Shown here: positions 12,255-16,726 of the stretch, one piece after another | How the letters are laid out: the number at the start of each line of letters is the position of its first letter | Numbering within the stretch: the first letter of the stretch is position 1 | Assembly: GCA_937912115.1 (NCBI GenBank) | Contig: CALDOI010000306.1 | Location: 1-56,734 of the forward strand | Source of the DNA: an uncultured Bacteroidota bacterium | GTDB lineage: Bacteria; Bacteroidota; Bacteroidia; Bacteroidales; F082 | Direction of reading: 5' to 3' | Length of the DNA: 56,734 nt | Position numbers and translations under genes: made by a program | Notes under the pieces: model-generated | Databases searched by the model: none | What the model saw: only the letters and a program-made list of their open reading frames with translations | What the model was told of the DNA's origin: nothing

Positions 12255-13220
12255 ATGATTGTAATTACTGGCGCAGCTGGCTTCATTGGAAGTGTATTAG
12301 TTGAGCAATTAAATAAAGAAGGTTATGGTAATCTTATTCTTATTGATGATTTTACTAATATTAACAAGGATAGAAACTTAGCTGAAAAGCAATTTATTAA
12401 GAAGGTTCACAGGGATGATTTTTTCGAGTGGTTTGATAAATATAGCACTAATGTAGATATCGTATTGCATATTGGAGCACGCACTGATACTACCGAGTTT
12501 AATAAGGATATATTAACTGTGCTAAATCTGGAGTATACTAAGCAGATATGGGAAAGATGTAGCGATTATCAAATACCCTTAATATATGCCTCATCTGCCG
12601 CAACATACGGGCTTGGTGAGTTTGGTTATAATGATGATCACGACATTGTGGAAAAACTTGTGCCACTTAACCCTTATGGAGAATCGAAGAATGATTTTGA
12701 TAAGTGGGCATTAAAGTCAAAGAAGCAGCCTCCACGATGGGCAGGATTAAAGTTCTTTAACGTTTATGGCCCAAATGAATATCATAAAGGACGTATGGCA
12801 TCAGTAATGCTACATGCTTACGGACAGATTAAAGATACGGGAAAAGTAAAATTGTTTAAATCACACAATCCTAAATATAAACATGGGGAACAACTTCGTG
12901 ATTTTGTTTATGTAAAAGATGTTGTTGATGTAATTCTTTTTTTGATGAAAGATGGCCCTGGGTCAGGGTTATACAATTTGGGAACGGGGAAGGCACGCAC
13001 TTTTGTTGATCTTGCAAATGCTACGTTTGCTGCTCTTGAACTTGAGCCTAATATTGAATTTATTGATACTCCTGAAGATATTCGTGATAAATACCAATAT
13101 TTCACCGAAGCAAATATGGATAAACTTCGGAGTATTGGTTACGATAAGGATTTTACTTCTCTAGAATTGGGGGTAAATGATTACGTAAGAAATTATTTAA
13201 TCAAGAAAAATTATTACTAA
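12255..13220 (+). CDS. hldD: ADP-L-glycero-D-manno-heptose 6-epimerase
   Basis: 321 residues, an NAD(P)-dependent short-chain dehydrogenase/epimerase. It converts ADP-D-glycero- to ADP-L-glycero-D-manno-heptose for the lipopolysaccharide inner core. The N-terminal MIVITGAAGFIGSVLVEQL is the nucleotide-binding Gly motif. IGARTDTTEFNKD and the SSAATYG and NPYGESKNDFD segments hold the Ser and the Tyr-x-x-x-Lys catalytic residues. LKFFNVYGPNEYHKGRMASV is the HldD-type substrate-binding block. Length is that of the family. Upstream (12098-12254) are the divergent protease promoter and AT-rich sequence. It fits the lipid A genes further along the window, although it is not in the same transcript. 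Confidence 0.95.
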   Translation: MIVITGAAGFIGSVLVEQLNKEGYGNLILIDDFTNINKDRNLAEKQFIKKVHRDDFFEWFDKYSTNVDIVLHIGARTDTTEFNKDILTVLNLEYTKQIWERCSDYQIPLIYASSAATYGLGEFGYNDDHDIVEKLVPLNPYGESKNDFDKWALKSKKQPPRWAGLKFFNVYGPNEYHKGRMASVMLHAYGQIKDTGKVKLFKSHNPKYKHGEQLRDFVYVKDVVDVILFLMKDGPGSGLYNLGTGKARTFVDLANATFAALELEPNIEFIDTPEDIRDKYQYFTEANMDKLRSIGYDKDFTSLELGVNDYVRNYLIKKNYY

Positions 13221-13223
13221 TAA

Positions 13224-13253
13224 TTGTGAAAGAGAATAACTTTAATATATTTG
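13224..13253 (+). promoter_or_regulatory. predicted promoter of the trp leader-trpB unit
   Basis: TTG at 13224-13226, a 19-nt spacer, and TATATTTG at 13246-13253 match the -33/-7 pattern of Bacteroidota promoters exactly. The leader ATG follows only 5 bases after the -7 box, so transcription would start at or within a few bases of it. The leader mRNA would then be leaderless or nearly so, unless a GTG at 13226 or another promoter is used. Confidence 0.6.
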
Positions 13254-13258
13254 CGCAG

Positions 13259-13330
13259 ATGAATTTTGTAACAAATAACAATTATTGGTGGCACAATAGG
13301 TTTATCCTTAGGGAAAATTTTGTTGTGTAG
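13259..13330 (+). CDS. trpL: trp leader peptide with tandem Trp codons
   Basis: A 23-codon frame runs ATG (13259) to TAG (13328-13330). It begins MNFVTNNNYWWHNRF, with consecutive TGG TGG at 13286-13291. A strong intrinsic terminator starts 26 bases after the stop, and trpB follows. Tandem Trp codons in a short frame ahead of a terminator and a trp gene are the hallmark of ribosome-mediated transcription attenuation: when charged tRNA-Trp is scarce the ribosome stalls and the terminator does not form. That the peptide exists is a direct reading; the mechanism is inferred from known trp leaders. I could not identify a convincing antiterminator by eye. No ribosome-binding site is visible. Confidence 0.75.
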   Translation: MNFVTNNNYWWHNRFILRENFVV

Positions 13331-13356
13331 TTCACTTATAGTTAAAACTAATAGTA

Positions 13357-13390
13357 AGCCGTCTCATTTCAAAATGGGACGGCTTTTTTT
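13357..13390 (+). terminator. intrinsic terminator (attenuator) between trp leader and trpB
   Basis: The stem AGCCGTCTCATT (13357-13368) pairs with AATGGGACGGCT (13373-13384) over 12 bp with one G-U pair, around a 4-base loop. It ends in seven T's (13384-13390). It is placed after the leader peptide stop and 145 bases before trpB, so it would end transcription before the gene unless prevented. It could also terminate hldD read-through, but its position right after a Trp-rich leader favours an attenuator. Confidence 0.85.
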
Positions 13391-13410
13391 ATTCAAAAAA
13401 AGTTAGAAAA

Positions 13411-13500
13411 ATGATTAATGAAATTCAAATTTGGATTGGTCGAACAATTTTTCGATGGCGCAGTTATCGTAAACACTCATTATTATTTAACCTGCTATAA
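13411..13500 (+). CDS. possible second small ORF between attenuator and trpB
   Basis: ATG to TAA, 29 codons, starting MINEIQIWIGRTIFRWRSYR. It contains two separate TGG codons (residues 8 and 16) and is basic. It lies downstream of the attenuator and ends 35 bases before the trpB start. A small hairpin (TCGAA 13440-13444 / TTCGA 13451-13455) lies inside it. It may be a second control peptide or a chance frame; no ribosome-binding site is clear. The rest of the gap 13221-13535 holds only the promoter, leader and terminator listed separately. Confidence 0.25.
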   Translation: MINEIQIWIGRTIFRWRSYRKHSLLFNLL

Positions 13501-13535
13501 TTATTTGAAAAATTAATATTTTAAAATGAACTGAA

Positions 13536-14735
13536 ATGAATACAACAATAATTGAACACGAAATTAAAACTAAACAATTTGACTCAATAGATGGCAGATA
13601 TGGCGAATATGGTGGTATGTATGTTCCTCCAATACTTGAAGACAAACTATTAAATCTTGCCGGGTTTTTTATGGAAACAAAATCGAAACCTGATTTTGAA
13701 ACTGAATACTTATATTATTTGAAAACATTTGTAGGACGACCATCTCCATTGTATTATGCGAACAATTTATCCAAAATAGCCGGCTCAAAAATTTATCTTA
13801 AGCGGGAGGATTTAAACCATACGGGATCCCATAAAATTAATAATACCATCGGGCAAATTTTACTTGCCAAAAGAATGGGAGCAAGCGAAATTGTTGCCGA
13901 AACAGGTGCCGGACAACATGGTGTTGCAACTGCAACGGCAGCAGCATTATTTGGGATGAAGTGCAAAATATTCATGGGTACACGGGATGCCGAAAGACAA
14001 AAAATGAATGTGAGTAGAATTAAGCTGCTTGGCGCAGATATTATTCTTACAAATGAGGGGCGTGGCACATTAAAAGATGCTGTTGATGCTGCTTTAGGTT
14101 ACTACATTGAAAATCCTGATGTTTTCTACCTTCTTGGATCGCAAGTTGGTCCACATCCCTATCCAACCATGGTTGGACATTTTCAGAGTATTATTGGTAA
14201 AGAAGCTAAAAAACAAATAATTGAGACAGAAGGCCGATTGCCGGATAATCTTTTTGCTTGCATAGGTGGAGGTTCAAATGCAATAGGATTATTTACTGAT
14301 TTTCTTTACGATCAGAATGTTGCAATTTACGCAGCTGAAGGTGGTGGTGATGGACCAATACTGGGGAGCACCGCCGCTACTTTAAGTTTAGGAAAGCCTG
14401 GTGTTTTTCAAGGGACATTTTCCTATGCATTAACCGATGAAAATGATAATATATATCCAACACATTCCATTGCTGCCGGACTTGATTATCCGGGAATAAG
14501 CCCACAACATGCGTTATTAAAAGACACAAATAGAGCTAGCTATTATTTGATTACAGATGCAGAAGCCATTGAATCTTTTAAATTATTGTCGAAGGTTGAG
14601 GGAATAATTCCAGCCATTGAATCATCGCATGCTGTGGCTTTGGCATTAAGAGTGCTGAAAAATAAACCAAATGACATTAGTATTATCAATCTTTCAGGAC
14701 GTGGTGATAAAGATGTGGAGCGTGATTTGATGTAG
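13536..14735 (+). CDS. trpB: tryptophan synthase beta chain
   Basis: 399 residues, PLP enzyme that joins indole and L-serine to make L-tryptophan, normally with TrpA. The N-terminal FDSIDGRYGEYGGMYVPPILE block is the TrpB1 type. KREDLNHTGSHKINN holds the PLP Lys at position 100, ETGAGQHGVATATAAALFG holds the catalytic Glu, and GGGSNAIG binds the phosphate of PLP. Length is normal. It is not followed by trpA or any other trp gene: a terminator and the convergent htpG come next. A Trp leader and attenuator precede it. In Bacteroides-type operons trpB comes first, so this may be a cut-down or split operon, or an indole-salvage copy; the other trp genes are not in this window. Confidence 0.95.
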   Translation: MNTTIIEHEIKTKQFDSIDGRYGEYGGMYVPPILEDKLLNLAGFFMETKSKPDFETEYLYYLKTFVGRPSPLYYANNLSKIAGSKIYLKREDLNHTGSHKINNTIGQILLAKRMGASEIVAETGAGQHGVATATAAALFGMKCKIFMGTRDAERQKMNVSRIKLLGADIILTNEGRGTLKDAVDAALGYYIENPDVFYLLGSQVGPHPYPTMVGHFQSIIGKEAKKQIIETEGRLPDNLFACIGGGSNAIGLFTDFLYDQNVAIYAAEGGGDGPILGSTAATLSLGKPGVFQGTFSYALTDENDNIYPTHSIAAGLDYPGISPQHALLKDTNRASYYLITDAEAIESFKLLSKVEGIIPAIESSHAVALALRVLKNKPNDISIINLSGRGDKDVERDLM

Positions 14736-14751
14736 GATTATTGATTGTAAA

Positions 14752-14788
14752 AAAAAAGGAGAGCTCTATAATTAAGCTCTCCTTTTTT
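14752..14788. terminator. bidirectional terminator between trpB and htpG
   Basis: GGAGAGCT (14758-14765) and AGCTCTCC (14775-14782) pair perfectly around a 9-base loop, flanked by an A run on the left and a T run on the right that extend the stem to 14 bp. It can serve both convergent genes: a T tract follows the stem on either strand. Confidence 0.88.
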
Positions 14789-14809
14789 AGTTTTGTTGCA
14801 ATGAAAGTT

Positions 14810-16726
14810 TTATATTTCGCTAACATTTCTTTTTACAAAATCATTAAGCTCTTTACCCACAAGTAAATTTTTAGCTAGTCGGGCAAGATCGTAAAGTTGT
14901 TTTACAATAGCATCTTGCTTATCAGCTTCTTTTTCGTCCATAACTTTTGTAATAAGTGGATTGTTTGTGTTTACAATTAACTCAAATGATTCAGGAAGGC
15001 TTCCCATTCCCATCATCATTCCACCACCGCCACCAACTTTTTCCATATCTTTCATGCGTCGCATAAACTCATTTTGAGTTATAGTTACAGGCATGTCAGT
15101 TTCGCTGAGGTTTTCAAAAATTACATTAAATTTTTCTTTATTTATGCTACGTTCAATAACTTCCTTTAAAGTTTCTTTTTGCTTATCATCAAGTTTAGAA
15201 GGTGCTTCATCATCCTTTTCAATTATTTTATCGATGGTATTTGAATCAACACGTGCAAAAGTAGAATCCTTAAGTTTTTGTTCTAAACTATTAATAAAAT
15301 GATTGTCAAGAACTCCGTCCATTATTAACACATCATAACCGCGTTCGGTCGCAGTTTCAATGTAACTATATTGGTCTTCTTTATTAGTCGCATACAGATA
15401 AATCAGCTTTTTATCTTTGTTTTTCTGAGTCTTCTCAATATGTTTTTGATATTCATCAAGAGTAAAATATTTGCCTTCAACATTTTTAAGAAGTGCAAAT
15501 TTTTCGGCCTTTTCGTAGAATTTCTCTTCGGAGATCATTCCGTACTCAATAAAAATCTTAATATCATCCCATTTTTTCTCAAATGCTTCACGATCTTTTT
15601 TGAAAAGTTCGTCAAGTTTGTCAGCTACCTTACGTGTGATATAATTTGAAATTTTCTTAACGTTACCATCACTTTGCAAATACGAACGACTTACGTTAAG
15701 TGGAATATCGGGTGAGTCGATTACACCATGTAATAAAGTTAAAAAGTCAGGAACAATTCCTTCAACCGAATCAGTAACAAAAACCTGATTGCTATATAGT
15801 TGAATTTTATTTCTCTGCATTTCATAATCCTTTTTCACCTTTGGAAAATAAAGAATACCGGTTAGGTTAAAAGGATAGTCTACATTTAAGTGGATGTGAA
15901 ACAATGGCTCCTCAAATGAATAAGGATATAATTCACGATAGAATTTTTTGTAGTCTTCATCGGTGACCTCAGTTGGTTTTTTCTTCCAAAGGGGATTTGT
16001 ATTGTTGATAATTTTTGGCTTCTCAACTTCTTTGGTTTCCTGATTACCGTCTTTATCTTTCTTACCTTCAATTGGTTCTTGAATCTTTTCTGTTCCAAAT
16101 TGAATGGGGACAGGAAGGAATTTACAATACTTGTTTAGAAGCTCATTTATTTTATAATCTTCTAAAAACTCTTTATTCTCGTCATCAATATGAAGAATTA
16201 CTTCAGTTCCACGATCATTTTTCTCTATTTCTTCCAATGAGTAGTTCGGACTTCCATCACATTCCCAGCGCACAGCTTTGGTTGATCCACCTTTTTTATA
16301 AGTTTTGGTTTTTATCTCAACCAAATCGCTTACCATAAATGAAGAGTAGAATCCTAATCCAAAGTGGCCAATAATATTATTTTGCTCGGCTTCACTTTTG
16401 GTTTTGAATTTTTTCACAAATTCTTCGGCACTTGAAAAAGCAATCTGGTTAATGTATTTTTTAACCTCATCTTCTGTCATACCGATTCCACGGTCGCGAA
16501 TGGTGATGGTTTTTTTCTTTTTATCAACTTCAACATGAATGGTAAGGTCACCCAAATCACCTGTAAATTTACCCATCGACGCAAGTGTCTTCAGTTTTGA
16601 AGTAGCATCAGTAGCGTTTGAAATAAGCTCTCGTAAAAATATTTCATGATCCGAATAGAGGAATTTCTTAATTATCGGGAATATATCTTCCGTTTTAATA
16701 TCAATTTTGCCTTTTTGTAATGTCAT
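14810..16726 (-). CDS. htpG: chaperone HtpG (Hsp90 family)
   Basis: 638 residues. ATP-dependent cytoplasmic chaperone that helps late folding and stress survival. The GHKL ATPase domain shows FLRELISNATDATSKL, the DRGIGMT nucleotide-binding loop, and IGHFGLGFYSSFMVSD. The middle domain includes SLEEIEKNDRGTEV-type blocks and LNVSRSYLQSDGNVKKI. A C-terminal dimerisation domain with a GGGGGMMMGMG-type Gly/Met linker near 560 completes it. There is a charged linker at about 225-240 (EGKKDKDGNQETKEVEKPK). The length is full. It ends at the shared terminator with trpB. The start ATG at 16726 is the usual family start (MTLQKGKIDIKTEDIFPII). Confidence 0.96.
   Translation of the reverse strand: MTLQKGKIDIKTEDIFPIIKKFLYSDHEIFLRELISNATDATSKLKTLASMGKFTGDLGDLTIHVEVDKKKKTITIRDRGIGMTEDEVKKYINQIAFSSAEEFVKKFKTKSEAEQNNIIGHFGLGFYSSFMVSDLVEIKTKTYKKGGSTKAVRWECDGSPNYSLEEIEKNDRGTEVILHIDDENKEFLEDYKINELLNKYCKFLPVPIQFGTEKIQEPIEGKKDKDGNQETKEVEKPKIINNTNPLWKKKPTEVTDEDYKKFYRELYPYSFEEPLFHIHLNVDYPFNLTGILYFPKVKKDYEMQRNKIQLYSNQVFVTDSVEGIVPDFLTLLHGVIDSPDIPLNVSRSYLQSDGNVKKISNYITRKVADKLDELFKKDREAFEKKWDDIKIFIEYGMISEEKFYEKAEKFALLKNVEGKYFTLDEYQKHIEKTQKNKDKKLIYLYATNKEDQYSYIETATERGYDVLIMDGVLDNHFINSLEQKLKDSTFARVDSNTIDKIIEKDDEAPSKLDDKQKETLKEVIERSINKEKFNVIFENLSETDMPVTITQNEFMRRMKDMEKVGGGGGMMMGMGSLPESFELIVNTNNPLITKVMDEKEADKQDAIVKQLYDLARLAKNLLVGKELNDFVKRNVSEI

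Follow-up and report, generated by a model that had tools for sequence, protein, structure and literature searches.

Attenuation has been predicted before in Bacteroidetes. Its classical scheme is that of the Trp leader (PMC1183508). In Escherichia coli, a short leader frame carries Trp codons, and the transcript can adopt mutually exclusive protector, antiterminator, and terminator pairings (PMC1183508). Tryptophan synthase is also known to work on indole without a full pathway, as in the trpRBA system of Chlamydia trachomatis (PMC6635532, PMC6302012). TrpB2, which occurs in bacteria (PMC1854888), and the stand-alone TrpB of Pelodictyon luteolum (plTrpB) act, or are thought to act, without TrpA (PMC11917138). 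Small leader frames with other modes of action have been described as well. TnaC, a short frame that includes Trp, precedes the gene of an indole/Trp enzyme, tryptophanase, and a Trp of its nascent chain (W12) matters (PMC8429421). Two leader frames precede the single gene ermB, where translational attenuation is induced by erythromycin (PMC8274638). Among gut bacteria, partial Trp pathways have been listed only down to TrpA plus TrpB in the text available of an amino-acid survey (PMC9026213).

The locus described here resembles each of these systems in part. It lies in the window, i.e., the whole stretch of 56,734 nucleotides analysed from an uncultured bacterium of the Bacteroidales (GTDB lineage F082; GCA_937912115.1, contig CALDOI010000306.1). 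A ribosome-mediated transcription attenuator very probably controls there a lone TrpB making tryptophan from indole and serine. The Trp response, the direction of regulation, and the activity of the enzyme are predicted from the observed anatomy and conservation of the locus and from the gene content of the genomes, as far as searched.

In the preliminary description, a promoter was placed just before a 23-codon frame with tandem TGG TGG, followed by a 12-bp terminator stem with seven T's and then by trpB, a layout read as that of ribosome-mediated attenuation. All elements from the promoter to trpB are located on the + strand. The promoter-like element TTG-N19-TATATTTG (13224..13253), judged by its motif, ends 5 nt before the leader ATG. 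The leader frame, uORF1 (MNFVTNNNYWWHNRFILRENFVV, 13259..13330), comprises 23 codons and a TAG stop, has a Trp-rich counterpart in relatives, and carries the tandem control codons at 13286..13291. The terminator scan identified an intrinsic terminator (13356..13390) with a loop of 4 and a stem of 13 pairs (13356-13385), and the seven T's run from 13384 to 13390. A second small frame, uORF2 (MINEIQIWIGRTIFRWRSYRKHSLLFNLL, 13411..13500), which was missing from the preliminary description, follows the terminator and is conserved in relatives. Thereafter comes trpB (13536..14735), coding for a tryptophan synthase beta chain of 399 aa. The upstream neighbour (12255-13220) encodes an ADP-heptose epimerase (376 bits, cut-off 275). 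The convergent neighbour encodes HtpG (658 bits, cut-off 371), and a terminator-like hairpin seen by eye at 14755..14788, with a loop too long for the scan and no strand assigned, separates it from trpB, in agreement with the gene order first reported.

None of 2000 dinucleotide shuffles of 13221-13535 reproduced the TGGTGG leader together with the terminator; in the window, scanned on both strands, the pair was unique to this 300-nt tile. The combination is thus beyond chance, and the order of frame, seven-T terminator, and trpB stands. The hairpin alone is not beyond chance, because one terminator was observed in 13000-15000 and the shuffles gave 1.2. The transcript of 13259-13400, terminator included, folds 5.3 sd below its shuffles. 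Rfam covariance models, whose known leader families include the Trp leader and the T-box, gave no match at gathering score in the window. The promoter consensus in Bacteroidetes is TAnnTTTG. It was found at most 75 nt upstream of 35 of the 58 homologous leaders, compared with a mean of 5.0 and a maximum of 8 in 40 shuffle sets. The distance from this motif to the ATG of the leader is 4-7 nt in 15 of the 58 loci, which suggests that the mRNA may begin almost at the ATG. A leader ATG so close to the presumed start of the transcript distinguishes the locus from the trp leader of E. coli.

Relatives were searched in a family set of 149 genomes and an order set of 295, with 400-480 nt read upstream of the genes; loci at a contig edge (L002, L099) or with only 37 nt upstream (L059) were excluded. 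In the family, every lone-trpB locus with upstream DNA (21 of 21) has a leader. These leaders carry WW or WWW, with the exceptions of WRWR (L015) and WQWR (L022), and L041 has a Trp leader too. In the order, leader and terminator precede 25 of 28 lone trpB genes; the remaining three (L086, L093, L098) show no leader within about 450-480 nt upstream. A hairpin with a T run lies behind the leader in 58 of 59 loci, a count in which loci without a leader are not entered. One locus, L003, was left out of the pairing, protector, post-terminator frame, and uORF2 fold tests on account of its imperfect terminator. The Trp codons and the terminator are therefore conserved in related genomes; a lack of this conservation was one of the outcomes that the preliminary description would have taken as a refutation.

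Similar leaders are not restricted to lone trpB. Three of the four trp operons read (L079, L080, L081) have both leader and terminator ahead of their trpE-like first gene, and none was found in the fourth (L078). For these trpE-like genes TIGR00564 is the best model, with 415-426 bits, below its cut-off of 518. Genes of the TrpB2 type, about 33% identical to the window TrpB and passing TIGR01415 in the three cases tested, carry a Trp-rich leader at all 12 loci with upstream DNA, and at 8 of these a terminator as well. No leader was detected within 500 nt of seven operon-type trpB genes. In L067-L070, of the TrpB2 type, leaders with SWSWWWP end about 100-230 nt before the gene, and no intrinsic terminator was seen by eye; perhaps they represent another mode of Trp control. 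Small frames ending in WRWRS or WRWRWRS before other TrpBs (L027, L030) are possibly another leader type.

The window TrpB scores 523 bits with TIGR00263 (cut-off 392) and is TrpB1-like. Lys100 lies in its PLP-site motif, and the catalytic Lys is kept in 52 of 52 lone TrpBs. Among solved structures its best match is the beta chain of the ancestral LBCA enzyme. Six residues (Res6: E36, E42, T53, S187, A279, M280) shared by LBCA TrpB and plTrpB have been tied to the stand-alone activity of the former (PMC11917138). By alignment, the window TrpB keeps S187 only, in which it departs from plTrpB, as its TrpB1-like character sets it apart from TrpB2. The Res6 set as a signature of lone TrpBs was accordingly rejected. 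In 21 lone TrpBs, S53, S187, and T279 were found in all and Y or F at 280 in 20; S187 is also present in 15 of 15 TrpBs of the other type. That one residue out of six is kept speaks against an easy stand-alone activity of the window enzyme. The trpB genes of L003 and L015 contain one internal stop codon each, either as pseudogenes or through assembly error.

A split or shortened operon had been put forward at first for the isolated trpB. In this explanation, the gene and its attenuator are the remnant of a trp operon whose other genes were lost or lie elsewhere, and the same type of attenuator before the trpE-like gene of relatives' operons would agree with it. In a tree rooted on LBCA, however, the 52 lone TrpBs form one clade (support 0.907) separate from 15 others that are of operon type by identity; for L023-L030 and L071-L077 this label denotes 46-51% identity, with the neighbourhood read for a few. 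Identity to the window TrpB is 58-100% within the clade and at most 55% outside it. The lone gene appears by sequence comparison to be a member of a separate TrpB clade and not an operon remnant.

Gene content points in the same direction. The models for trpA and IGPS (trpC) both match all 14 control genomes. The genome of the window, 90% complete, has one trpB match and no match to either model, so that the trpA sought elsewhere, as had been advised, was not encountered and canonical trp operon membership, judged by trpA and trpC, was not found. Of the trp genes, this search covered trpA, trpB, and trpC and not trpE, trpD, or trpF, which leaves some room for a remnant. The locus is set apart from that of E. 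coli in this respect: here the leader precedes trpB as the one gene, and the search of the genome yielded neither trpA nor trpC. C. trachomatis differs too: it keeps trpA, and its system is controlled by TrpR and YtgR (PMC7755916) and not through a leader peptide on a lone trpB. The family set holds 22 TrpBs of the lone type, window included, at 66-100% identity, the next TrpBs being at 51% or less. In the 21 family genomes with only the lone TrpB, no trpA exceeded the cut-off and no trpC was found (26 genomes tested); G047 and G050 gave weak partial matches to the trpA model of about 19 bits. Both genes are present in four controls with other TrpBs and in G063, which has both TrpB types. In the order set, where the trpA model was applied and the trpC test belonged to the family set, the lone type occurs in 30 of 295 genomes at 58-100% identity, the next TrpBs being at 55% or less. 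Out of 29 new order genomes, 17 match the trpA model at E 0.001 and only 4 exceed the cut-off (G172, G206, G311, G403), with another TrpB adjoining trpA in each. Lone and trpA-linked types thus occur together in five genomes, G063 and these four. This co-occurrence and the separation in the tree led to the rejection of the operon remnant, which is also opposed by uORF2, encountered solely before genes of the lone type, and is considered very unlikely.

Candidates can be proposed for the alternative stems that the preliminary description suggested folding. In the window, a protector hairpin (13287..13336, arms about 13287-13307 and 13312-13336) pairs the Trp-codon region with the end of the leader and the bases just past its stop. 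The fold was taken over the stretch that begins with the first Trp codon and ends 17 nt beyond the leader stop; compared with shuffles, its z is -2.69 (rank 3 of 200). Among 58 leaders, z is below 0 in 45 and in the lowest 5% in 26, with a mean of -1.61, and 13 do no better than shuffled sequence; a pairing of the Trp codons with bases at the stop or beyond it is common among these folds. The competing pairing between leader end and terminator gave z below 0 in 51 of 58 loci in a duplex test (mean -1.22, lowest 5% in 16), seven being no better than shuffled, and z below 0 in 26 of 29 leaders in an alternate pairing test (L013, L014, and L017 above 0); the loci are related, and the tests are not independent. 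The complementary letters vary by lineage while pairing is kept, as seen by eye with GCAGGAGGG/CCCUCCUGC in L111, GAAAAAGC/GCUUUUUC in L087, and CAGGGAG/CUCCCUG in L110. For the window, the proposed antiterminator (13305..13379) consists of 13317-13322 (AUUUUG) with 13370-13375 (CAAAAU) and of 13305-13308 with 13376-13379. It reached a z of -2.03 in one test (2 of 60 shuffles as good) but +0.46 in the duplex test (rank 129 of 200), which indicates that the window's own antiterminator is weak. A candidate can be proposed for the antiterminator that could not be found by eye at first, though in the window itself the pairing is weak or absent. Unlike in E. coli, the proposed antiterminator often uses the terminator loop and 3' arm.

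The segment engaged in this pairing starts between -27 and +7 nt of the leader stop. It would be masked by a ribosome that has reached the stop, but left accessible by one that stalls at the Trp codons. The start of transcription is probably located a few bases upstream of the leader ATG. When Trp-tRNA is plentiful, the ribosome would reach the leader stop and leave, the Trp-codon region would pair with the leader end as the protector, the terminator would form, and trpB would be silent. When Trp is scarce, the ribosome would stall on the Trp codons and cover the 5' arm of the protector, so that the freed leader end could pair with the terminator and transcription could continue into trpB. The weakness of the window's antiterminator, and the fact that a terminator-like site alone is not beyond chance, would be expected if leader and terminator were unregulated, a constitutive terminator or processing site with incidental Trp codons. 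That explanation is highly improbable, since WW or WWW before a terminator is kept in dozens of divergent loci, the protector and the competing pairing are mostly conserved, and the shuffles did not reproduce the combination.

Indole salvage under Trp control had been offered as the other explanation of the isolated gene, and it gains support from the failure to find trpA and trpC, the lone TrpB clade, and the conserved attenuator layout. The genome of the window contains tryptophanase (TnaA, 821 bits, cut-off 750). TnaA was found in 27 of the 30 order genomes with lone TrpB (missing in G206, G237, and G395), in 41 of 110 with the other, operon-type TrpB only, and in 118 of 155 without a TrpB match. 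Fisher tests gave 1.9e-7 for lone versus operon type and 0.001 for lone versus all others, values uncorrected for kinship. A model of the E. coli type matched 47 of 51 lone-TrpB genomes, none over its cut-off. As TnaA is common in genomes without a TrpB match, it marks the missing pathway and not the lone TrpB as such. Lone trpB and tnaA are convergent neighbours in L114 and L115. Since the host has tryptophanase and trpA and trpC were not found, the TrpB step would recapture indole, its own or that of its neighbours. Given the predicted enzyme activity and Trp response, recapture of indole under Trp shortage is the simplest reading.

The second frame is outside what the attenuation mechanism explains and constitutes, with its position behind the terminator, a further difference from the E. 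coli leader, as does the absence of an Rfam match. It was counted in 47 lone-trpB loci with a leader and sequence to trpB, L003 being included and L021 and L082 being one. In six of them (L022, L090, L091, L092, L096, L106) there is no second frame, and trpB begins 30-40 nt behind the terminator. Among the other 41, a small frame with W-x7-W starts 14-37 nt after the terminator in 33, of which 31 come from the frame listing, besides L003 and L094, which that listing gives as fused in frame. The exceptions are L015, with TGA for the second TGG; L021, L085, and L101, with one Trp; L095 and L097, with WWW; L108, with no Trp; and L109, with no clear frame. In L095 and L097, APWWWRG takes the place of W-x7-W. 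In the window, the two Trp codons are located at 13432-13434 and 13456-13458, exactly 8 codons apart. In the frame listing, made without a criterion of Trp spacing, every post-terminator frame with two non-adjacent Trp has the pair 8 codons apart. In 31 frames aligned on the second Trp, with Trp at -8 and 0 (31 of 31) as the selection criterion, I is found at -11 in 22, F at -2 in 25, R at -1 in 25, and the start Met at -15 in 22, while the residues behind the second Trp vary.

Scanning the GTDB species collection with a sequence pattern gave 18 records. In 12, trpB lies behind the frame (11 lone, one TrpB2-like, L043); L044 ends too early for trpB, and five records without trpB were taken as chance. 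Eleven of these 13 were family genomes already counted, L041 and L043 being the only new ones. No uORF2 was found in the TrpB2 loci L058-L066 or before the three trpE-like genes, so that, save for the TrpB2-like L043, the frame was seen only before genes of the lone trpB type.

This restriction, and conservation at the peptide level, would be consistent with a functional micropeptide without regulatory role, e.g., a TrpB partner replacing TrpA or a membrane peptide. The 81 close pairs of uORF2 differ 207, 152, and 288 times at codon positions 1, 2, and 3, a modest third-position excess. Pfam gave no match for four small peptides, uORF2 of the window among them. Between 0 and 22 residues follow the second Trp, six of 46 lone-trpB leaders run directly into trpB without the frame, and L043 has it before a TrpB2-like gene, all of which makes a micropeptide unlikely. 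Another candidate role is to assist trpB translation by coupling or reinitiation, with Trp codons that carry no signal. Arguments have been made for reinitiation after leader genes, the distances of which peak at 11-14 bp in Bacteroidetes (PMC4833913), and uORF2 ends between 4 nt inside and 163 nt before the gene start (290 nt in L043). Such an assistance is doubtful: the distances are mostly 24-124 nt, far from that peak, and the fixed spacing of the two Trp would be unexplained.

Control of trpB by an RNA structure of uORF2 was considered and rejected (mean fold z -0.32 over 31 sequences, 19 below 0). Whether or not a ribosome is stalled, the trpB start stays 40-95% unpaired; the value rises on stalling in some loci (L008, L010) but not in the window. 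A spacer of the Rho type is weak: C/G is 290/115 in the pooled spacers, with C above G in 24 of 31, compared with 234/217 and 16 of 29 upstream of window ORFs, but L010-L012 carry much of the excess, and in the spacer of the window there are 1 C and 3 G. The codon before the second Trp is CGA in 19 of 20 family frames (CGC in L021; CGA TGA in L015), compared with 11 of the 69 Arg codons of five window ORFs. It is CGA in L041 and L043 too, which were retrieved, however, with a pattern that includes CGATGG. CGA as a fixed slow codon is not general, given AGA, CGT, CTG, TTT, and others in the order. The TnaC arrangement, with Trp 12 residues before a terminal Pro-stop, was not found either. In comparison with TnaC, uORF2 carries its two Trp 8 codons apart, lacks a conserved Pro-stop, and sits between an intrinsic terminator and trpB. 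In comparison with ermB, the first frame is here placed to control termination, and the second came without any RNA structure found.

As the constraint on the peptide reaches to the second Trp and is slight beyond it, and as no RNA structure in the direction of trpB was seen, an action of uORF2 during its own translation is favoured, as a guess from sequence. It is tentatively suggested, as a possibility, that uORF2 is a second Trp sensor behind the attenuator, in which the two Trp codons exactly 24 nt apart (W8, W16) hold the ribosome at codon 16 and set trpB output. With F-R before the second Trp in most frames, the nascent chain or a slow-codon pair might hold the ribosome, which could, for instance, keep Rho off the unstructured, G-poor spacer, as it does at tnaC.

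As far as the literature was searched, through titles and abstract openings and with few subscription journals, neither a Trp leader on a lone trpB nor a W-x7-W frame was found. The available text on TrpB2 and plTrpB describes no Trp leader for them (PMC11917138, PMC1854888). A word search of the main text of PMC2965389 returned no trpB, Bacteroid-, tryptophan, or trpE. Within the literature covered, Trp attenuation on a lone trpB, in genomes with tryptophanase and without trpA or trpC, appears to be new, and so does the conserved W-x7-W second frame. TrpB without TrpA or TrpC, together with tryptophanase, is a gene-content state spread through one order (30 of 295 genomes) with a predicted Trp control of its own. 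If the proposed reading is true, these bacteria produce indole as well as recapturing it, a point of relevance to the exchange of indole in communities. The second frame is a short candidate for a new translation-based amino-acid sensor. If it does sense Trp, the lone trpB would be read through two serial Trp checks, one transcriptional and one during the translation of uORF2.
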